Positions 13,516 to 27,787 of a stretch of 64,000 nt of DNA are shown here, piece after piece. The position numbers were made by a program, and so were the translations under genes. The DNA comes from an uncultured Mucispirillum sp. GTDB lineage: Bacteria > Chrysiogenota > Deferribacteres > Deferribacterales > Mucispirillaceae. The notes under the pieces were generated by a model. That model was not told the DNA's origin. It did no database searches and saw only the letters and a program-made list of their open reading frames with translations. Location of the stretch: the NCBI GenBank assembly GCA_944326705.1, contig CALVEY010000003.1, positions 1-64,000 of the forward strand, in the 5' to 3' direction. Numbering within the stretch: position 1 is the stretch's first letter; every line of letters starts with the position of its first letter.

Positions 13516-13594
<79 letters not shown>

Positions 13595-13704: not shown

Positions 13705-13728
13705 ACCGCCTATTATTTAATAGGCGGT
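13705..13728. repeat. Perfect inverted repeat upstream of the sigma-like gene
   Basis: ACCGCCTATTA and its exact complement flank a 2-base spacer, about 45 bases before the ATG of the sigma-like gene. A T run lies before it, not after, on the plus strand, so it is unlikely to be a terminator for that gene; an operator or leader hairpin is more likely. Between it and the tRNA (13600-13690) are two related direct repeats (ATTAATAGGTTA, ATTAATACTAGGTTA) and a CAGCAAC / GTTGCTG inverted pair. Confidence 0.6.
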
Positions 13729-13774
13729 GCAGTCAAAACTACAATTTATCTATTTTCTCTTTTGGTGGTGCTAT

Positions 13775-15451
13775 ATGGTAACCGCTGAAAGACGCCAAAA
13801 GCAAATCTGCTTTCACAATATAGATTTATATAATTCTATACAAATACCAGTGCGTGATTATTTACTGGAATTGACAAAAGATTTAGAGCTTGCCGTCCTG
13901 CTTAATCAAATGATATTCAGCAAAAAGGAATATATGACTTTAAATGACATAAAACGGCTGTCATTAAATGAAAAAACAAAACAGACTATTAGGGTTAAGC
14001 TGGAACAGCTTATAGAAATGGGCTTAATTAAAAAACATAAAAACAATAAGATTATATATAACCAAGATTTATATACAGTATCTGATAGTTTACTATCTTT
14101 TGAAGATAATAAAATATTAGGCATAATTGAAGGTAAAGACTTAAACTATGAATTTCACTACTTAATGGCAATGATTATAAATAAATTTAGAACATATGCA
14201 TTAAGTGGGATAAATGAGCTAACTATATCAGTATATCAATTAAAAATAATGCTGGGTGTAAATAACAGTGAAAGCTCTATCCGTAATGTTTTGAATCAGC
14301 TGGCAGAAGATAATTATATCACAATTGATACAGATAAAAATGTCAACATCAATACATATATAATCAATACAGATAAAATCATAAATAATTACAGCCTTGA
14401 AGATATAAAGAAATATACCGAAGAACTGGTTAAATATTATGAAGAATATTTAAAACGGATGGCATATTATATTTATAAACATAGAAGTGATAACAACTCT
14501 ATTGATTACCATATTAAATTGACATTAAATAGTTTTAAAAATATTATTAAGAAACTATTTGAAAGTGGCAAAGCCGATTATTATATATTAAAGTATATAA
14601 TGATATACTTAATCCATAATATAGATTTAGAAAAATATACAAATCCAAGAGCTATTAAAAAAGAATATAATGAGCTGGCGGAATTATCAAAAAACTTATC
14701 TAAAAGAAAGGCGAAACGGTTTATATATAAATTTCAAAACGACTTACTTAATGAAGAAAGCAGTAAGGCATTAAATAAAATCTACTGGGATGAAGCACAG
14801 AAATTTATAGACAACTATAAAAGTATATTGCGTTTAAAATATTTTGAAAGCAGGGCAGGAGTAAATTATATTGAAGTGGAAGACTACTACCAAGAAGCAT
14901 TACATATTACATATAAAATTTTAAAAAAATACAATATTACTGATATAACGGATAATGAGAAATTTAGCAAAGAAATTCTATATAATGAAATATTATATAG
15001 ATTAAAAGAATATATGTATAATAAAAGGGACAATATAAAAGTAGGACAACAGAAAGATTTACAGACAGATAAAAGAGATTATAGTATCTGTATTACATCA
15101 GTCAGTGATGATGAGTATTATTTTAAAACAATAAATAATTATACTACGGATGCCTTATGCAGTAATTTTCTTGTTAAAGAAGATACAGAACTGGAGCAGA
15201 TAGATATAGAATATGATACTAATACAGGCATAAATAAACTTTTCAGCATATTAGACGACAGAAGCCAGTATGTAGTAAAAAAATATACAGGCTATGACGG
15301 TCAGGCTTTAACATTTAGAGAGATAGGGGAACAAATAGACTTAACAGAAAGCCTTACAGCAAGAATATATAAAAAAGCTATTCAAAAACTAAAAGAACAC
15401 TTCCCACCTGATAGAGAGCAGGAAATAAGGCAGTTAATTTTTAAGACTTAA
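13775..15451 (+). CDS. Winged-helix plus sigma-70-like fusion protein of the element
   Basis: The 558-residue product (ATG at 13775 after a GGTGGTG site; a longer GTG-initiated frame is less likely) has two parts. Residues 1 to about 180 show two helix-turn-helix-like units (LNDIKRLSLNEKTKQTIRVK and ISVYQLKIMLGVNNSESSIR) like those of replication initiators or repressors. The C-terminal half resembles a sigma-70 factor. A region-2-like stretch lies near residues 345-385 (VNYIEVEDYYQEALHITYKI), and a clear region-4 helix-turn-helix lies near 493-545 (ALTFREIGEQIDLTESLTAR). It may recruit RNA polymerase to element promoters or act in replication. I know no characterised protein with this layout. 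Confidence 0.75.
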   Translation: MVTAERRQKQICFHNIDLYNSIQIPVRDYLLELTKDLELAVLLNQMIFSKKEYMTLNDIKRLSLNEKTKQTIRVKLEQLIEMGLIKKHKNNKIIYNQDLYTVSDSLLSFEDNKILGIIEGKDLNYEFHYLMAMIINKFRTYALSGINELTISVYQLKIMLGVNNSESSIRNVLNQLAEDNYITIDTDKNVNINTYIINTDKIINNYSLEDIKKYTEELVKYYEEYLKRMAYYIYKHRSDNNSIDYHIKLTLNSFKNIIKKLFESGKADYYILKYIMIYLIHNIDLEKYTNPRAIKKEYNELAELSKNLSKRKAKRFIYKFQNDLLNEESSKALNKIYWDEAQKFIDNYKSILRLKYFESRAGVNYIEVEDYYQEALHITYKILKKYNITDITDNEKFSKEILYNEILYRLKEYMYNKRDNIKVGQQKDLQTDKRDYSICITSVSDDEYYFKTINNYTTDALCSNFLVKEDTELEQIDIEYDTNTGINKLFSILDDRSQYVVKKYTGYDGQALTFREIGEQIDLTESLTARIYKKAIQKLKEHFPPDREQEIRQLIFKT

Positions 15452-15652: not shown

Positions 15653-16085
15653 TATATCAGCAGTTCGTAAAAATTCATACACTACTCACAATTTCTAATA
15701 CACTCTATATAAAGAATATATAAATAAAAAGGTATTATATAATTATTATATTATTTATAACGCCAAAGAAAAAAAAAGGAAGAATTTTTAAAATTAAAAA
15801 AAAAGAGTATAGCAATTATTCAAGTTTTATGATGTATGATAGTTACAATTATTTTTAATACTGCATATATGATTATTTGCTGGTAGATGTTTTTTTAAAT
15901 TATATAGTAGATAATTTTAAAAATTTAAATAATCTAAAAAAATATATAGAATAGTAGATAAATATTATTAATTTCAGCAGTCTAGATTTTTGACCGCCGA
16001 ATTTTTTAAATTTTCCGCCTGTATAAAGAGATAGAATATAAATATATACTTTTATACTATCCGCCAGCAAACACAGCGGACAGGG

Positions 16086-16126
16086 CAAAATAAAGCCCTG
16101 CATAATATAATTACTATACAGGGCTT
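16086..16126 (-). terminator. Terminator of the small-peptide transcript
   Basis: AAGCCCTG and CAGGGCTT form a stem across an AT-rich loop. On the minus strand it is followed by TTTATTTT. It would end a minus-strand RNA starting near 16352, giving an mRNA of about 265 bases. Confidence 0.6.
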
Positions 16127-16133
16127 GTTTTGC

Positions 16134-16162
16134 TTGACAATTAATAAGAATGCTTTTATATT
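16134..16162 (+). promoter_or_regulatory. Sigma-70 promoter driving antisense RNA
   Basis: TTGACA, a 17-base spacer and TATATT form a near-consensus promoter on the plus strand. It has no coding sequence in front of it and fires across the 28-aa peptide gene in the antisense direction. Confidence 0.75.
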
Positions 16163-16168
16163 ATGGGT

Positions 16169-16290
16169 ATAAACCGCAGGGCTAACTTGTAGCCCTTTGG
16201 TTTTTAAGAGTTATAACAGCTCTTTTAATAGCTTGATGACTGCGGTAACAGTTTCAAGTATTTTGGTTAAAAGAGCTATTTTTTCTTTTT
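16169..16290 (+). ncRNA. Putative antisense RNA to the small-peptide mRNA
   Basis: The inferred RNA of about 120 bases starts at the promoter at 16134-16162. It contains a hairpin AGGGCTA / TAGCCCT (16178-16196). It ends at a second stem AGCTCTTTTAA / TTAAAAGAGCT (16218-16228 with 16267-16277) followed by ATTTTTTCTTTTTT, a good terminator. It would be complementary to the entire coding part of the peptide gene except its first codons. The existence of the RNA is inferred from promoter and terminator signals only. Confidence 0.5.
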
Positions 16291-16297
16291 TACCCAT
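16211..16297 (-). CDS. 28-residue amphipathic peptide, possible type I toxin
   Basis: The frame encodes a 28-residue lysine- and leucine-rich peptide starting MGKKEKIALLTKIL, predicted to form one amphipathic helix. A very strong AGGAGG lies six bases before the ATG, which makes translation likely despite its size. Its own promoter (16359-16387), a 5' hairpin CTGTAAA / TTTACAG at 16330-16348, and an antisense promoter at its 3' side give the layout of type I toxin-antitoxin loci. The coding sequence itself contains an 11-bp inverted repeat that would fold the mRNA. Toxicity is inference; a leader peptide is the alternative. Confidence 0.55.
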   Translation of the reverse strand: MGKKEKIALLTKILETVTAVIKLLKELL

Positions 16298-16358
16298 TCG
16301 CACCTCCTATTAAATTTTCAAGCATCAAACTGTAAAATTGCTTTACAGCTGATTATTA

Positions 16359-16387
16359 TATATACCATAAATTGCCTTATATATCAA
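16359..16387 (-). promoter_or_regulatory. Sigma-70 promoter of the small-peptide gene
   Basis: On the minus strand TTGATA, 17 bases and TATATA form a good promoter, with a predicted start near 16352. The 5' leader of about 55 bases holds a hairpin and the AGGAGG site. Confidence 0.65.
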
Positions 16388-16439
16388 GGCTTTTTATGAT
16401 ATTCTTATATTTTTTACAGTCTACTTTTTGTAGTCATTT

Positions 16440-17201
16440 TTATTCTTCTTCAAAAATGAAATCAACTTTATCCAGTTCTGCAAACATTTCTTTTTGCATT
16501 CTTGTAAATCTGCTTCTACTCATAATAAATACAGATGTGTCAGTTTTTACTTCTTCAAAAGTTTTATGATTTGTAAGCATTTCTGATAAATCTTTTTTAA
16601 ACAGGTCGCCTTTGTATGTTGGTATTCTTACCACTCCTAATATTTTATTTTCATTATTTTTATATTCTGGATAATCTGTGATTTTTTTATCTTCCGTTTC
16701 TATTTTGCCTAAATAATTATTTATCCATACTATAAGTCTAGTGTTTGAATTTATAAAATTGTAACATATAGTATTAAGTCCTGCCAGTGTATGAGATAAT
16801 CCTTCACCGCCTGCTATAACTGTATGTATAAATACAGTTCCTTCATAGCTATGCTCTTCTGCTGTTAAAATATTAAATAAATCATTATCATAAGCATAAT
16901 TCATTAATGGCACAAATGAACTTGCACCATTATCTATTATAATATTTGATTTATCTGTATTTAATAACCTATTGGCTAACATTTCCCATCCTTTATCTGT
17001 AATTCTGTTTTCTTCCATTAGGTTTACCTGCTCTACATTTAAACCTTTAAAGCTGGCAAAGCTGGCATTTACTTGGTCAGTATCTATTGCAAGATAATCC
17101 TGTTTTAAATAGTCTTTTACATACTGGGTTATAAAGGTTGATACTGTTGTTTTTCCTACACCTCCTTTTCCTTGTAGGATAAAATGATAATTTTTTCGCA
17201 T
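16440..17201 (-). CDS. traL: TraL-like ParA/MinD-family ATPase of the conjugation module
   Basis: The 253-residue product matches RP4 TraL closely: FILQGKGGVGKTTVS (Walker A, residues 8-22), LAIDTDQVNASFASFKGLNV, IIIDNGASSFVPLMNYAY and VFIHTVIAGGEGL all have direct counterparts in TraL. TraL is a ParA-like ATPase of the RP4 Tra1 region; its exact step in transfer is not settled. The ATG follows GGAG. It lies 24 bases after traK on the same strand, in the RP4 order traK-traL reading away from oriT. I am confident of the family. Confidence 0.9.
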   Translation of the reverse strand: MRKNYHFILQGKGGVGKTTVSTFITQYVKDYLKQDYLAIDTDQVNASFASFKGLNVEQVNLMEENRITDKGWEMLANRLLNTDKSNIIIDNGASSFVPLMNYAYDNDLFNILTAEEHSYEGTVFIHTVIAGGEGLSHTLAGLNTICYNFINSNTRLIVWINNYLGKIETEDKKITDYPEYKNNENKILGVVRIPTYKGDLFKKDLSEMLTNHKTFEEVKTDTSVFIMSRSRFTRMQKEMFAELDKVDFIFEEE

Positions 17202-17225: not shown

Positions 17226-17780
17226 TTATTTTAGTATGCTTGTCTCATAAACAAAGCTCTTCTTTTCTTCTGGTATGTTTTTTTGTTGATTTTGTAAATT
17301 ATTAAAATATTCTTCTCTTGAGTTAAACCCTGCTTCTTTCCATTTTGGAATTTTGCCACTTGGCTTTTCATCAGCTGGAACATCTTTTTTAATTTCTATT
17401 TTTTCCTGTTCTTTTGGTTGTGCTGGTTGCTCTGATTCTGAAATTTTAGCCGCTAAAATTTCAGGCTGTTTTATTTCTTCTTTTTTCTCTGGTGTGGCAG
17501 TAGCTGGTTGACTGATTGCCTGCATTTGCTTTTTATATTCTGCTTCTGATAGGTTATAAATGTATTTCTTTTTAAATTCTGAAATAAATTGACAAAAATA
17601 TTTATAATCAATATCTAATTGTGTTCTTTCAATAAATACTTCATATATATGTATATATCTTACTTTATCATTAAGAGCCTTTAATATATCATTTTTATTT
17701 TTTTCTAAAAAACTTCTTAATATATTATATTTATTTTTACTAATTAGCTCGTCATATAAACTTTGTTCTTCTTTATTCAT
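17226..17780 (-). CDS. traK: TraK-like oriT-binding protein
   Basis: The 184-residue product has an N-terminal domain (residues 5-80) that matches the DNA-binding part of RP4 TraK, with the pattern DILKALNDKVRYIHIYEVFI then DYKYFCQFISEFKKKYI. A proline- and glutamate-rich linker (about 90-150) and a short tail (WKEAGFNSREEYFNNL) follow. RP4 TraK binds and bends oriT to help the relaxosome form. It lies between traL and a second, shorter copy, on the traK side of the nic site as in RP4. A 21-bp palindrome of the element is embedded in its linker codons (17441-17461). Confidence 0.8.
   Translation of the reverse strand: MNKEEQSLYDELISKNKYNILRSFLEKNKNDILKALNDKVRYIHIYEVFIERTQLDIDYKYFCQFISEFKKKYIYNLSEAEYKKQMQAISQPATATPEKKEEIKQPEILAAKISESEQPAQPKEQEKIEIKKDVPADEKPSGKIPKWKEAGFNSREEYFNNLQNQQKNIPEEKKSFVYETSILK
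17441..17461. repeat. 21-bp palindrome, copy 1 (inside traK)
   Basis: The sequence is AAATTTTAGC, one base, GCTAAAATTT; both arms are perfect. It encodes ILAAKI in the traK linker. Three more copies lie in non-coding parts of the element. Confidence 0.75.
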
Positions 17781-17788
17781 AACTGCAC

Positions 17789-18094
17789 CTAATTATATTT
17801 TTTCTCTGGTGTGGTAGTAGCTGGTTGACTGATTGCCTGCATTTGCTTTTTATATTCTGCTTCTGTTAGGTTATAAATGTATTTTATTCTAAAATCAGAT
17901 AAAACTTTACAAAACCAATTATATTTTACATCAATTTTACTACTTTCTATAAATTCATTATAAATATCTTTATATTTTACATTATTATCTAGTGCTTTTA
18001 ATATATCATTTTTGTTTTTTTCTAAAAAACTTCTCAGAATATTATATCTACGCCTATTTATTAATTTATCATATAAACTTTGTTCTTCTTTCAT
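17789..18094 (-). CDS. Truncated tandem copy of traK
   Basis: The ATG at 18094 has a GGGAG site upstream and gives 101 residues. They match residues 1-100 of the adjacent TraK-like protein (SLYDKLINRRRYNILRSFLE), then stop shortly after the shared EAEYKKQMQAISQPAT segment. DNA identity is highest near the 3' end of the copy (17800-17885 against 17487-17570), which points to a recent tandem duplication or recombination. The DNA-binding part is kept and the linker and tail are lost. It may act as a second oriT-binding protein or a competitor of full TraK. Confidence 0.65.
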   Translation of the reverse strand: MKEEQSLYDKLINRRRYNILRSFLEKNKNDILKALDNNVKYKDIYNEFIESSKIDVKYNWFCKVLSDFRIKYIYNLTEAEYKKQMQAISQPATTTPEKKYN

Positions 18095-18112
18095 ATCTAT
18101 ACTCCCTACTAG

Positions 18113-18135
18113 TATATACAGATACCAACTGAACA
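18113..18135 (+). repeat. 23-bp element repeat, copy A
   Basis: TATATACAGATACCAACTGAACA lies just upstream of the ribosome site of the partial traK gene, an operator-like position. It is in inverted orientation to copy B 60 bases away. Confidence 0.7.
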
Positions 18136-18195
18136 TATTTATTGATATAAGTTAATAATCAAAAATTTTCATAAATATTTATATAATTATTACAT

Positions 18196-18372: not shown

Positions 18373-18714
18373 ATGAATAAAAAAGATAAGTGGTTTAAGC
18401 TACGATTAACACCAGAAGAAAAAGAAATTTTAAAAAGCAAGGTTGAAAAAGTTGGGTATATTACACAGTCGGATTATATCCGCCGTTTAATTACAGATGT
18501 AGAAATACCCTGTTATTTAGACAAGGTTAAGTTAAATGATATTAGACGGCTTGCTGGTCTGCTGGGTAAAAATACAGGGCTTTTAAAAATGTATATTATG
18601 GAGCTGGAACAGCCCAATAAAAAAATGATTGATAAGATTATCAATGATAATGAAAAAATCAAAAAGGAAATAAGGCAGGTATTAGAACATATAAAGTCAA
18701 AATTTAATATATAA
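18373..18714 (+). CDS. traJ: TraJ/MobC-like relaxosome accessory protein
   Basis: This 113-residue protein starts KKDKWFKLRLTPEEKEILKS and continues with the pattern SDYIRRLIT, the ribbon-helix-helix layout of TraJ/MobC-type proteins. It then has the DIRRLAGLLGKNTGLL segment common to relaxosome accessory proteins. Such proteins bind the inverted repeat beside nic and recruit the relaxase. It begins about 75 bases from the oriT inverted repeat and diverges from traK-traL, as in RP4. In RP4 the next gene is the relaxase traI; here a lipoprotein follows and no relaxase exists. Confidence 0.85.
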   Translation: MNKKDKWFKLRLTPEEKEILKSKVEKVGYITQSDYIRRLITDVEIPCYLDKVKLNDIRRLAGLLGKNTGLLKMYIMELEQPNKKMIDKIINDNEKIKKEIRQVLEHIKSKFNI

Positions 18715-22283: not shown

Positions 22284-23180
22284 ATGGATAGTTTAGAAGT
22301 ATTACAGCAAATAAATATTTTATCATCTGCTATTTTATCAAATTTTAATTCTATTACATTAAAAAAGTATATAGAAGACTATTATATACCTTTTCAAAAA
22401 AACGCTAAAAAAGAAAAGAATTTTAAGGATTTATTAGGTAAATTAAATATAATTCTGTCTTATGAACTTGTAGATAAAAATATTACAGATATTACAGAAA
22501 ATGATATTTTAAATTTTTTTAATCTACTAAAAAATGATAGAGACATCAAGCAGGCAACACAAAATCGTTATAGAACTTGTTTAAATCATATCTTTAATAC
22601 AGCGATGAAAGACAGAATAGTTAATTACAACCCAGTAAAATATATTAAGCGATATAAAGAAAAAAACAGGGATAGAGCTTTAAGTAAAACTGAAATAAAA
22701 GCACTACTTGAAGCCTGCAAGCAAAGCAGGAATGAAGAATTATACTATATTGTACTTACTGCCTTATATACTGGTATGAGATACAGCAATATAGTAAATA
22801 TGAAGAAATCAAATATAAAAAATAATGTCTACCAGCTTGACGGATGCGAAACAAAATCAGGCAAAAGCCAGCTTATATATTTACATCAAGATTTATTAAA
22901 TGAATTAAATCAATATATACAAGCTCATAGTAGAGATAATATTTTTATTACAAAACGGATAAAACGCTCATTTAAAACAGCTTTATTAAAAGCAGGGATA
23001 GAAAATTTTAGATTTCACGATTTAAGGCGAACATTTGCAACTACATTGCTGTATAATGATGTGAATATTAAAACCATTCAAAATATGTTAGGTCATAGCT
23101 CAATTATGATGACAGAGCGATATTTAGCAAATGACAGCAAAAAAGAGCTTGACGCAATTAATAAATTATGCTTTATTTAA
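22284..23180 (+). CDS. int: Tyrosine recombinase (integrase) of the element
   Basis: The integrase catalyses site-specific insertion and excision at the tRNA-Arg 3' end. The 298-residue product has an N-terminal SAM-like core-binding domain (residues 25-110) and a catalytic domain with the full active-site set: Arg166 (TGMRYSN), Lys near 191-194, His245 and Arg248 (FHDLRRTF), His271 (MLGHSS) and Tyr280 (MTERYLAN). The ATG follows GGAG. It lies 100 bases inside attR. No excisionase gene is recognisable; the upstream region is rich in inverted repeats that could bind one. Confidence 0.95.
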   Translation: MDSLEVLQQINILSSAILSNFNSITLKKYIEDYYIPFQKNAKKEKNFKDLLGKLNIILSYELVDKNITDITENDILNFFNLLKNDRDIKQATQNRYRTCLNHIFNTAMKDRIVNYNPVKYIKRYKEKNRDRALSKTEIKALLEACKQSRNEELYYIVLTALYTGMRYSNIVNMKKSNIKNNVYQLDGCETKSGKSQLIYLHQDLLNELNQYIQAHSRDNIFITKRIKRSFKTALLKAGIENFRFHDLRRTFATTLLYNDVNIKTIQNMLGHSSIMMTERYLANDSKKELDAINKLCFI

Positions 23181-23281: not shown

Positions 23282-23330
23282 GCCTTCTAAGCCGTGGGTC
23301 TGAGGTTCGAATCCTCATGGGCACGCTTTT
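23282..23330 (+). repeat. attR: right 49-bp direct repeat
   Basis: It is a perfect copy of 13546-13594, covering the tRNA-Arg 3' half from the anticodon loop on. It is not a functional tRNA because the 5' half is missing. Confidence 0.92.
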
Positions 23331-23531: not shown

Positions 23532-25481
23532 ATGGGAGAAACATATTCTGAAAATAACAACATATTAGAGTTAAAATCTATTTCTAATATACATAATGAA
23601 AAATTTATTATTCCCTCTTTCCAGCGTGGTTACAGGTGGGAGCCTGTTCAAGTAATTACACTTCTTGAAGATATAAAAGAATATATTGAAAAAAAATTAG
23701 ATACTTTTATGTGCCTGCAGCCAGTTGTATTTTATAAAAAAAATAATAACGATAATAAATTAGAAGGATTAGTTGTTGTAGATGGGCAGCAAAGACTTAC
23801 TACTATTGCTGTAATTAGTAGATGCTTAGGACTTGATAATATAAATATAGAATATAATAAAAATAATAAGGCATTGCAGGATATACTAAATAATGTAGAA
23901 AGCTATCTTAACACAAATAAGATGGATATAAATAACTTATTTAATGACGATAATAAATTATTATTTGAAAAAACTAGTGAAATATATAAAAAGATTTATC
24001 TATCTGCCAGAAACAATTCTGATAAAGTTAATTTATTAGATGAATATTATATTATTTTATCATATTTAACCATTAAATGCTGGCTGGAAAATGAGAAAAA
24101 TATAGAAGAAAGTATTAAAAGTATTAAAAATCTTTTCACATCTGATAAAGATAATTTTTCTATTAAATTTATATGGTATGATGTAACTGGGGAAATTAAT
24201 GGTAAAGAAACAAAAGCCATAAATATTTTTACAAGATTAAATATTGGAAAAATAGAACTTACAGATGCGGAACTAATCAAAGCGTTATTTTTGAAAAAAG
24301 ATAATTTTAAAGATAGTGAATTAGATAAAAAACTTCATATTGCATATAAATGGGACGAAATAGAAAAAACCTTAAATAATGACAGTTTTTGGTATTTTTT
24401 AAGCAATGATAAAGATAAACCAAAAAAAGATAGAATAGAGCTGGTACTAGAACTTGCAGCAAATATAAAAAATGATGAACAGCATAACCTGTTTAGAAAT
24501 TATGAAAATAAATTAAAAAATAAAAATGAACTTGATAAGCACTGGCAGGCTGTTGAAGAATGCTTTATGACATTAAAAGAATGGTATAATGATAATGAAA
24601 TGTATCACTATATAGGCTTTTTATTAAATAATAAACTTGAATCATTAGAAAATATATATACAAATATATATACAAATAAACTTGAATCATTAGACAATAT
24701 ATATAAACGTGATATTATTAAAAATAAAGTAATAGAAAAAATTAAAACAAAAATAAATGTAGACGAAGTAAAGAATTATACATATTATAATAATGAAGAA
24801 GAAATAAAATTAATCTTATTTTTTTCAAATATTTATGAAACAATTCATTCTAATCAAGCACGCAACAAAAAAGGTTCTGTAACTGAAACAATAACAAATA
24901 GATTTCCTTTTGATTTATATATTAAAGAGGATTTTGATGTAGAACATATAGCACCACAAACAGAAAATCCATTAAATAATAAAGAAGACCGTATTAAATG
25001 GTTTAAAGACTCTTATGAATATCTAGAAAAAATAGATTTTAGTAAGATAAATGATGATGAAATAAAAAATAATTTAACAGAAGAAAATATTAAAAAAATA
25101 ATTGAAAATGAAGATAACAAGAATATAAATAATATTATTTTTAATAATGAAAAATGGAATATTATATATAACTATATACTTGAAACTGCAATAGAAAAAG
25201 GTAAAAATATTAATTTAGAAGATGAAGAACATTGTTTAGGCAATCTTGTTTTACTGCCAAGAGATATTAATCGTGCGTATAAAAATGCGCTTTTTGGTGT
25301 AAAAAGAAAATATATTATAGATAAGGAAACAGAAAAATATAGATTTATCCCTGTTGTTACAAGGCATGCATTTCTAAAATATTATAGTAAAAATATTATA
25401 GATTTATGGACACAAGAAGATGCAGAACAATTTAAAAAAACAATCATTAATAACTTAAAAGAATTTTTAGGAATTAATTAG
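23532..25481 (+). CDS. DUF262 plus DUF1524 (HNH-like) protein, candidate defence nuclease
   Basis: The 649-residue product has the DUF262 (GmrSD N-terminal, ParB-like) domain at residues 10-260: IPSFQRGYRWEP, VVVDGQQRLTT (84-91) and IFTRLNIGKIELTDAELIKA. A C-terminal DUF1524 domain has FDVEHIAPQ (catalytic His472) and LGNLVLLPRDIN. In GmrSD-type enzymes the first domain binds nucleotide and drives cleavage of modified DNA by the second. The ATG follows AGGAG. An in-frame 45-base tandem duplication (24630-24705) repeats NKLESLENIY. The second DUF262 gene follows after 11 bases. Its target is unknown. Confidence 0.85.
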   Translation: MGETYSENNNILELKSISNIHNEKFIIPSFQRGYRWEPVQVITLLEDIKEYIEKKLDTFMCLQPVVFYKKNNNDNKLEGLVVVDGQQRLTTIAVISRCLGLDNINIEYNKNNKALQDILNNVESYLNTNKMDINNLFNDDNKLLFEKTSEIYKKIYLSARNNSDKVNLLDEYYIILSYLTIKCWLENEKNIEESIKSIKNLFTSDKDNFSIKFIWYDVTGEINGKETKAINIFTRLNIGKIELTDAELIKALFLKKDNFKDSELDKKLHIAYKWDEIEKTLNNDSFWYFLSNDKDKPKKDRIELVLELAANIKNDEQHNLFRNYENKLKNKNELDKHWQAVEECFMTLKEWYNDNEMYHYIGFLLNNKLESLENIYTNIYTNKLESLDNIYKRDIIKNKVIEKIKTKINVDEVKNYTYYNNEEEIKLILFFSNIYETIHSNQARNKKGSVTETITNRFPFDLYIKEDFDVEHIAPQTENPLNNKEDRIKWFKDSYEYLEKIDFSKINDDEIKNNLTEENIKKIIENEDNKNINNIIFNNEKWNIIYNYILETAIEKGKNINLEDEEHCLGNLVLLPRDINRAYKNALFGVKRKYIIDKETEKYRFIPVVTRHAFLKYYSKNIIDLWTQEDAEQFKKTIINNLKEFLGIN

Positions 25482-25492
25482 GAAGCGCAATT

Positions 25493-27787
25493 ATGAATAT
25501 AAATAATATAAAAGATAATAAGGTAATTATAAAAACATCTAATATATCACAAATAAAAATTCCTATGATACAGCGTGATTATGTGCAAAGCTTAGACGAT
25601 AAAAAATTTAAAAAATTTCTTAATGTTTTAGTTGATGCATTAAATAATGGTACGGAGCTTTCTCTTGATTTTATATATGGCAATATTAATGAAGATGGCG
25701 TATTTGAACCAATAGATGGGCAGCAAAGATTAACTACTCTTGCTTTATTAACCGTTTATCTGTATTGCAGACAAAGTGAAAATATTTTACAAAACCCATT
25801 TGAATATATAACTTATGCTACAAGACAAAGTGCAAATAATTTCTGCCAGCTTTTAAGAGGTGATAAGTGGAAAAATAAATTTAATGATACTGATAATCCA
25901 TCAAATATAATAAAAAATGACATAAAATATTTTAAAGAATATGATGAAGATACAACTATTTTTGCAATGTTACAAGCATTAGATAAAATCCATAACAGTA
26001 TAAAAAACCAAGATATAGATAGTTTAACAAAAAATATTAGCAATATATCTTTCCATATTTTTCCAATGGAAAGCTTTAATTTATCAGATGATTTATATAT
26101 AAAAATGAATGGTCGTGGCAAACAGCTTTCAAGTTTTGATAACTTTAAAGCAGATTATTTTAAATGGTTAGAAGAAAATGAAAAAAATATAGCTGAAGAT
26201 ATAATAGATATAAAAAATAACTTTAATAATAAATATATTGATATCTTTTGGGATTTTACATTTGAAAATAACAATAAAATACCTGACCCTGAAAGCTTAT
26301 TTTTTAGGTTTATAAATAGGTTTATTATAGCTAAAAATGATTTATCACAAAACATTATATCTGATAATTTTATTAATGACTCTGAAGACATGAACTATAT
26401 ATATAATTCATTTGAAATTTATAAAATAACTTTTCAAAATCATCATAAAGCTTTCATTACTCTTTTAGAGAATCTAACTAAAATTAGCAATATAAATGAT
26501 TATTTTCAACATCATATAGAAAATTATGAAGAAAATACATCTGTGAAATTTAATATATCTGATAAATTAACTTTTAAAACCAGATTTGCATATAATTATA
26601 TAATGAGATTTTTTGAAGAAACAAATTGTACTGAAAAAGTTGATGAAGCTAAAAAATATGCTAGAATTATCTGGAACATTACTGAACAATATTTTACTCT
26701 AAATGAAGTTAATAAAAATAGTTATATTACAGCTGTTAATGGTATGATACAAGTTGATAATATAAAGTGGGATAATATTTATCATTCATTTCATAAATTA
26801 GAAATTAAAGAATGCAAAACACATATGCAAAAAATACTTTGTGATGAAATAAAAAAATGCTCTTATATCATAGAAGAACCTGAATTAGAAGAAAAATTTA
26901 AGACTCTGGAACAACTTCCTTATTTAAATGGTGCTATTGGATTCCTGCTGGGTAAAGATAAAGATGATTTTAATAAAATATATGATACTGCTTTAAATGT
27001 ATTTAGTGAAAATAAACAACACATATTCAATATATATAATAATAATTATTTACTTAATAGAGCTGTAGTTAAAAAATTATTTGAAGATTCTAGAGAAAAT
27101 GATATATTATTCAACCCATTTAATAATAAATTTTTAAAAGAATACTTAATCAGCAGTGAAAATATTCGCGATATTACTCAAAATATTTTATTAAATCATA
27201 ACTCATATCTAATTAATGATAATGAATATACAGATTTTATATCTAAATATCATAATGATAATGATACTATTACTAAACACATATGTTTATCTGAAATATC
27301 TGCATTAATTCACTGTAAAATACAAGATAATTATCTAATTAACAAGTATTTTATATTTAAATATAATAATAATATTTACCTGTGTGAAATTAAGTATAAA
27401 AAATATCAAAATAATTCATCAGATAAAAAAAAATCATCTTTAATCATTGATAATCAAATATGTAAATTATTATATAATATTAAAACATTATTAGACAAGA
27501 ATAAGTCAAATAATGTAGTGTATGAGCCTTTTAATAAAATAGATATTATAGAAAATGAAATATATGGATTTAATAATGTAGCTAGAACCAGGTATGATAT
27601 AAATATAAACTTTAATATAGGCTCTATTAAATATCAATTTTGGATTTCAGGAGATATAATGGCTATAGAAAAATTTGAAAACGATACTTATAATTCTATT
27701 GAAGTAAAGTCTAATATTAAATATAGTGATATGGAAGATTATAGTAAAAACATGATAAAGCTTATTGAAGAACTTATTGATTCATAA
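25493..27787 (+). CDS. Second DUF262 protein, partner of the upstream gene
   Basis: The 764-residue product has a second DUF262 domain: IPMIQRDYVQ, then IDGQQRLTTLALL (from residue 74) and a variant of the later motif, DLYIKMNGRGKQLSSFDNFK (near 200-220). Unlike its neighbour it has no DUF1524 HNH signature, and I recognise no other nuclease motif in its long Asn- and Lys-rich C-terminal half. It begins 11 bases after the first gene with an AGGAAG site, so the two form an operon. A two-component restriction-like or abortive system is the most natural reading, but this is inference. A toxin role cannot be excluded. Confidence 0.8.
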   Translation: MNINNIKDNKVIIKTSNISQIKIPMIQRDYVQSLDDKKFKKFLNVLVDALNNGTELSLDFIYGNINEDGVFEPIDGQQRLTTLALLTVYLYCRQSENILQNPFEYITYATRQSANNFCQLLRGDKWKNKFNDTDNPSNIIKNDIKYFKEYDEDTTIFAMLQALDKIHNSIKNQDIDSLTKNISNISFHIFPMESFNLSDDLYIKMNGRGKQLSSFDNFKADYFKWLEENEKNIAEDIIDIKNNFNNKYIDIFWDFTFENNNKIPDPESLFFRFINRFIIAKNDLSQNIISDNFINDSEDMNYIYNSFEIYKITFQNHHKAFITLLENLTKISNINDYFQHHIENYEENTSVKFNISDKLTFKTRFAYNYIMRFFEETNCTEKVDEAKKYARIIWNITEQYFTLNEVNKNSYITAVNGMIQVDNIKWDNIYHSFHKLEIKECKTHMQKILCDEIKKCSYIIEEPELEEKFKTLEQLPYLNGAIGFLLGKDKDDFNKIYDTALNVFSENKQHIFNIYNNNYLLNRAVVKKLFEDSRENDILFNPFNNKFLKEYLISSENIRDITQNILLNHNSYLINDNEYTDFISKYHNDNDTITKHICLSEISALIHCKIQDNYLINKYFIFKYNNNIYLCEIKYKKYQNNSSDKKKSSLIIDNQICKLLYNIKTLLDKNKSNNVVYEPFNKIDIIENEIYGFNNVARTRYDININFNIGSIKYQFWISGDIMAIEKFENDTYNSIEVKSNIKYSDMEDYSKNMIKLIEELIDS

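Follow-up and report, generated by a model that had tools for sequence, protein, structure and literature searches.

A putative toxin gene on mobile DNA of Mucispirillum, very probably kept silent by an antisense RNA and by the fold of its mRNA

The full-length hok mRNA of the hok/Sok system, which is found on plasmid R1 and its relatives, is inert through pairing of its 5' and 3' ends and is activated by 3' processing, and an antisense RNA blocks its translation. Hok has about 50 amino acids and a coupled reading frame, mok, and Sok covers the mRNA leader. The inertness of the folded hok mRNA and its activation by 3' processing have been described (PMC6733600), as has the AapA/IsoA system of Helicobacter pylori, in which an mRNA of ∼225 nt encodes a 30-amino-acid helical membrane peptide and is opposed by a cis antisense RNA (PMC6733600). 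The aapA mRNA was shown there to be inert through a 5'-3' long-distance pairing that masks the Shine-Dalgarno (SD) sequence and to be activated by 3' trimming (PMC6733600); an inert mRNA, 3' trimming and an antisense block are all experimentally known for this system. According to a 2025 report, type I toxin-antitoxin systems are known only from Proteobacteria, Firmicutes and Tenericutes, to which candidates from Cyanobacteria were added, and search bias is the suspected reason for this narrow range (PMC12390103). Our searches of the open-access literature for Mucispirillum and Deferribacter returned no type I system, nor any from their phylum.

Here we describe a locus at positions 16086-16387 of the window, the whole 64,000-nucleotide stretch of DNA of the gut bacterium Mucispirillum that was analyzed. 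It resembles AapA/IsoA in its short helical peptide, its predicted cis antisense RNA, a predicted 5'-3' lock masking the SD sequence and the presence of several module-specific copies per genome. However, the IsoA promoter is located inside the toxin open reading frame (ORF) and IsoA masks the SD region, neither of which was found here: the Mucispirillum antisense promoter is located downstream of the stop codon at 16211, its bases form the anti-SD, and the predicted RNA stops in the ORF near codon 3. Unlike AapA/IsoA, the locus is mostly found on mobile elements and prophages, and the two share no family model in Pfam or NCBIfam. With hok/Sok it would share the logic of element maintenance and a folded mRNA activated by 3' processing, but the predicted antisense RNA covers the ORF and a 3' hairpin, and no mok-like frame was detected, as no other minus-strand ORF of at least 25 amino acids overlaps the leader or the toxin start. 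Neither the Hok family nor the hok and Sok RNAs gave a gathering-level match in Pfam, NCBIfam or Rfam. Like the window peptide, TisB of the Escherichia coli TisB/IstR-1 system is an amphipathic helix with few charges (29 amino acids); however, the target of IstR-1 is a standby site of the mRNA, and TisB is under SOS control (PMC8309996), whereas the antisense RNA predicted for Mucispirillum would be transcribed convergently and span the ORF. A candidate type I locus from beyond the classical phyla is likewise MsoT1/MsoA1 of Microcystis aeruginosa, whose antisense RNA MsoA1 overlaps the 3' UTR as well as the 3' end of the ORF, but it is cyanobacterial and a long-distance lock is not described in the accessible part of the report (PMC12390103).

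Layout of the locus and its peptide

The original prediction had proposed a type I layout composed of a 28-codon minus-strand gene with a strong ribosome-binding site, its own promoter and a 5' hairpin, together with a convergent promoter whose RNA ends at a T-tailed hairpin, and each of these parts was located. On the minus strand, the toxin mRNA promoter TTGATA-N17-TATATA (16359-16387; predicted RNA start near 16353) is followed by the 5' hairpin (CAGCTGTAAAG..., 16326-16353, from the fold), the SD sequence GGAGG (16303-16307, five bases from the ATG at 16297) and the putative toxin ORF (16211-16297, stop codon at 16211), which encodes the 28-amino-acid peptide MGKKEKIALLTKILETVTAVIKLLKELL. 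Folds and an arm-swap test identified a post-ORF hairpin (16171-16204) that would serve both RNAs, as a stem in the 3' UTR of the mRNA and as the 5' stem-loop of its antisense counterpart. The toxin mRNA terminator, a 15-pair stem with a T-rich tail, was placed by a terminator scan at 16093-16126 of the minus strand.

The convergent plus-strand promoter TTGACA-N17-TATATT (16134-16162) is the best promoter match (11/12) in the 2.5 kb scanned. As an RNA transcribed from it meets a stem and then a T-rich stretch at 16279-16291, it is expected to be ∼123 nt long (16169-16291, plus strand) and to cover codons 3-28 and the post-ORF hairpin. Its putative terminator (16218-16291; stem 16218-16229/16266-16277, T-tract 16279-16291), recognized from sequence and fold, is located inside the toxin ORF, with the T-tract opposite the Lys-rich toxin start and the U-tract being the complement of the Lys/Glu codons there. 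The terminator scan, which was limited to loops of 8 bases, did not report this hairpin because its loop exceeds the limit; a weaker 5-pair hairpin at 16374-16390 was listed. In the other copies of the locus described below, the equivalent RNAs are predicted to be 114-130 nt long. The antisense promoter is kept in 11/11 copies (10 intact and one broken), and a reversed-pattern control gave no match in the genus. The terminator stem is kept in all sequence classes and in all intact copies, the T-tract being poor in the copy of genome G005. At the sequence level, these features amount to a gene for an antisense RNA that would be complementary to the mRNA of the toxin.

Corrected for composition, no other place in the window is as structured as the locus: among 6,381 stretches of 220 bases that were scanned, the top two both start at 16081, one on each strand. 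The mRNA itself, for which folding by internal arms had been anticipated, reached a z-score of -8.9 (0/200 shuffles as good). Taken by itself, the promoter scan of the window copy is compatible with chance (22 sites versus 15.8 expected); however, a chance promoter pair is ruled out by its recurrence with N17 spacing in 10 copies, and chance can be excluded for the locus because the promoter pair, SD sequence, ORF and structure recur in nine further intact copies.

The peptides of the intact copies have 28, 30 or 31 amino acids, are basic and hydrophobic, and remain in frame in all 10 copies. They fall into five sequence classes with peptide identities down to ∼32%, namely MGKKEKIALLTKILETVTAVIKLLKELL (window, G002 with two changes, G003 and G006), MGKKEKIALLNKILEAVTAAIKLLKELI (prophage copy of G000), MGILKKLKIANQVLRLLATILKLIKLAKELI (G005), MGEKRKLSLADVSMVVLAIIEIIRLLRELL (G003, G004 and G006, with changes) and MGKQKRKLLTWKRLTLLVIIVDLIKSIMEL (G001). 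The start codon is ATG, TTG or GTG and always occurs in the motif (A/G/T)TGGGT. Replacements preserve the basic N-terminus and, in most peptides, a (K/R)EL end, and dN/dS was below 1 in every within-class comparison, with few substitutions in each. The window peptide carries a charge of +3, was modelled as a single helix (pLDDT 94) and is significantly amphipathic, as had been proposed. Amphipathicity was also significant for the G000b and G005 peptides but not for the hydrophobic G003b, G004 and G001 peptides. The locus thus encodes the small (<60 amino acids) hydrophobic or amphipathic peptide with an SD sequence that is typical of the type I class. The statement that no known family is recognizable holds in Pfam and NCBIfam for the peptide and in Rfam for the locus, which showed no gathering-level match and only weak ones (E 0.27-2.8) far below the cut-offs.

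Pairing of the two ends of the predicted mRNA

A conserved pairing of the two ends of the mRNA, absent from the original prediction, emerged from the folds. The mRNAs of the ten intact copies share one predicted fold, in which the SD/start region and the 3' end come together in a closing helix that encloses a long hairpin from the ORF itself as well as the post-ORF hairpin (z-scores of the end-to-end paired fold from -4.6 to -12.9 across copies). In 9/10 copies, the SD sequence and the start codon are paired to the 3' end with a probability of 0.78-1.0. The exception is G001, with only 0.33 for the SD sequence and no pairing of the start codon; the predicted RNA start may be too short in this copy. 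On the 3' side, the lock is formed by the antisense promoter as read on the sense strand. The element TACCCAT (16163-16169, minus strand; fold and RNAalifold), just downstream of the antisense -10 region, pairs with ATGGGTA of the start region, and the spacer of the antisense promoter (16140-16151, minus strand; fold, covariation and swap test) pairs with the SD flank as an anti-SD. G001 differs in that its SD flank pairs with CCTTTCCATA, which lies just before the copy of the -10 region.

The SD helix changes on both sides between classes (TTAATAGG/CCTATTAA, AAAATAGG/CCTATTTT, AACGAAGG/TCTTCGTA and GGAAAGGG/TCCTTTCC), with double changes in 6/8 pairs. For the covariation analysis, this helix was aligned by register. 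In the seven sequences used, which represent only four to five independent classes, 13 cells changed on both sides versus 5.3 in shuffles (0/500 as high) and far fewer in slid registers, and 91% of the cells were paired versus 70% in shuffles and 48-59% in slid registers, in a test that leans towards structure because the arms were hand-picked from the folds. An alignment-free test gave a similar picture: SD arms paired with their own 3' tails at a mean of -12.4 kcal/mol, compared with -8.4 kcal/mol for swapped tails (8/5040 permutations as good). Own partners were also better for the ORF arms (12/5040) and for the post-ORF hairpin (6/5040). The start-codon helix was found independently by RNAalifold as its consensus helix 1, in which 96.8% of the cells are paired. 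No double changes were seen in the covariation on a plain MAFFT alignment, since the consensus structure obtained there holds near-invariant helices only. Taken as a whole, prediction and covariation both point to a long-distance interaction masking the SD sequence and start codon, as in AapA/IsoA.

In silico removal of the 3' end raised the unpaired probability of the start codon from 0.04 to 0.97 in the window copy. The SD sequence of the window class stayed mostly paired after this trimming (unpaired 0.21 before and 0.23 after), with a partner just after the stop codon, and activation may therefore need more than trimming. As its sequence changes between the five classes, the lock is directly testable by arm swaps. 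M. schaedleri ASF457 can be grown in culture, which opens the prediction to an immediate check.

Copies of the locus and their carrying elements

Ten intact copies and one broken copy were found in Mucispirillum. The intact copies are distributed over seven genomes, with two copies each in G000, G003 and G006, one each in G001, G004 and G005, and an intact and the broken copy in G002; the second copy in the genome of the window shows 77% identity. All seven genomes of the genus that are at least 90% complete have a copy, and none was detected in three less complete Mucispirillum genomes or in 41 genomes from other genera of the phylum. Searches with the promoter pattern, with a peptide profile (11 loci at E ≤ 1e-8, the next match only at 0.24) and with an RNA model (E ≤ 1e-17, followed by a drop to chance level) reached the same set, part of which was also recovered by DNA searches. 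All intact copies have the sense promoter, a strong SD sequence, the peptide and the convergent antisense promoter. The sense promoter has N17 spacing at the equivalent place in 10/10 copies, GGAGG is invariant, and the 5' hairpin is kept at the equivalent position in all copies except that of G001. The broken G002 copy (L037, L094 near 9893) has lost the sense promoter, SD sequence and start codon, retains an intact antisense promoter and is flanked on both sides by transposase genes.

Phages and plasmids gave no match by peptide or DNA, and viral contigs gave only unrelated promoter matches and none to the ORF patterns. A pattern scan of one genome per species (84,980 species) returned only Mucispirillum and one 4.4-kb contig in a 'Bacilli' bin (L056, CALVSI010000032.1); the remaining matches were mostly tRNA clusters or otherwise unrelated. 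This contig carries the same Mucispirillum element, including the locus and, by inspection, a TrbL-like gene; it is probably misbinned, the other explanation being transfer. Three of the weak RNA-model matches in other genera (E ∼1e-3 to 1e-2) were inspected and rejected, two being starts of a longer HlyD-like gene and one being unrelated.

The window copy is located in a 9.7-kb element bounded by an exact 49-bp direct repeat of the 3' end of tRNA-Arg (13516-13590), with attL at 13546-13594 on the left border and attR at 23282-23330 on the right (both plus strand). The element encodes a tyrosine-type integrase at its right end (22284-23180, plus; Phage_integrase, E 1.5e-28), a NikA-like mobilization protein (18373-18714, plus; PF21983, E 2.8e-12) and, just upstream of the locus, a ParA-like ATPase (16440-17201, minus; CbiA/ParA domain, E 5.6e-7). 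It is a mobilizable element integrated at a tRNA. A 574-amino-acid protein with a C-terminal sigma-70 region 4 (13727-15451), conserved near the end of related elements, is possibly the replication or regulatory protein of the element. Tandem paralogous genes with weak DUF5338 similarity (17226-18136) vary in number between related elements. Just right of attR, two adjacent GmrSD_N (DUF262) proteins (23532-27787) form a possible defence system.

Outside the window, where gene names were assigned by inspection, the contexts are diverse. The G002 orthologue is located in a like element beside tRNA-Phe, and the second copies of G003 and G006 are located in a related element with a putative relaxase gene, so that both genomes carry two different classes on two elements. 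In a prophage, the second copy of G000 lies between lysis-type genes and an HTH regulator; that of G001 has a HicB-like gene as its neighbour and is located in the tail region of a prophage. The G004 copy is solitary near tRNA-Asn, and the G005 copy lies beside a transposase fragment. No terminal overlap that would signal circular plasmids was seen in the short contigs. The type I layout is thus conserved in 10 intact copies on several kinds of mobile DNA, in support of the original prediction.

Proposed function and alternative readings

The locus appears to hold a small putative toxin gene whose expression is very probably shut off in two ways, by an antisense RNA and through the fold of the mRNA. 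We estimate a probability of roughly 80% that it is a type I toxin-antitoxin locus which helps to retain mobile elements in Mucispirillum cells. From the sequence anatomy, its conservation, the covariation of the SD helix and the mobile contexts, we infer transcription, toxicity, 3' processing and a post-segregational effect as follows. The minus-strand mRNA would encode a short basic and hydrophobic helical peptide that most likely damages or depolarizes the inner membrane. At full length, this mRNA would be inert and stable because its 3' end pairs with the SD sequence and start codon, and 3' trimming by exonucleases, by analogy with hok and aapA, would slowly free the start codon. The ∼123-nt RNA from the strong convergent promoter just downstream of the ORF would pair with codons 3-28, block initiation and mark the mRNA for degradation, presumably by RNase III. 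Upon loss of the element, the antisense RNA would no longer be replaced, and the stable folded mRNA would persist, slowly become active and harm the cell.

Since the comparisons with aapA/IsoA and hok failed on antitoxin geometry (for hok also on the family models) despite the alike working, we consider it likely that the locus represents a new type I family, built in a way of its own and the first in Deferribacterota. It would achieve the hok/aapA lock by different means, in that one stretch serves as both antisense promoter and anti-SD and the Lys-rich toxin start encodes the terminator U-tract of the antitoxin on the opposite strand. Because of these shared bases, toxin codons, lock and antitoxin gene would be unable to evolve apart. 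A clearly conserved type I family in another phylum tests the idea of search bias, and the start-codon lock, if true, would be the control scheme of hok and aapA arising in unrelated bacteria.

The same toxin-antitoxin parts could serve another purpose, such as phage exclusion or a stress or dormancy switch, which seems improbable to us given that most copies are located on mobile elements and prophages. The solitary G004 copy and the G005 copy beside a transposase fragment would fit such a role. The chromosomal aapA toxin AapA1 turns H. pylori into coccoid forms (PMC8309996), and round bodies appear in cultures of M. schaedleri as these age (PMC10535455); a link of either effect to the locus is speculation.

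A distinctly smaller chance is given to an antisense-controlled peptide that is not a toxin and acts as a regulatory or leader peptide for transfer, replication or lysis genes of the element. Antisense-controlled leader peptides exist in plasmid replication control, and a second small ORF directly follows in two classes. However, the neighbours differ between copies (a ParA element, a conjugative-type element, phage tail genes, phage lysis and immunity genes, and a solitary position next to tRNA-Asn), so there is no common target gene, and the window ORF is followed by the 15-pair terminator, which should end the transcript. Least probable is a pair of structured non-coding RNAs with an incidental ORF, for although structure is extreme on both strands and base pairing constrains most codons, the good SD spacing, the ATG, GTG or TTG start kept in place, the always in-frame lengths of 28, 30 or 31 codons, the survival of the basic N-terminus and mostly of the (K/R)EL end, and the dN/dS below 1 all argue for a translated peptide, and sequestration of the SD sequence would be pointless without translation.

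The second small ORF encodes a hydrophobic peptide of 28-29 amino acids (MSEKQKTILLILIVILSATNLILDIVKG, with a distant version in G001) on the sense strand after the toxin, and is located downstream of the antisense promoter (L009, L008, L030 and L027), at the place that the terminator occupies in the window. A search of 15 genomes of the family recovered it in Mucispirillum alone.
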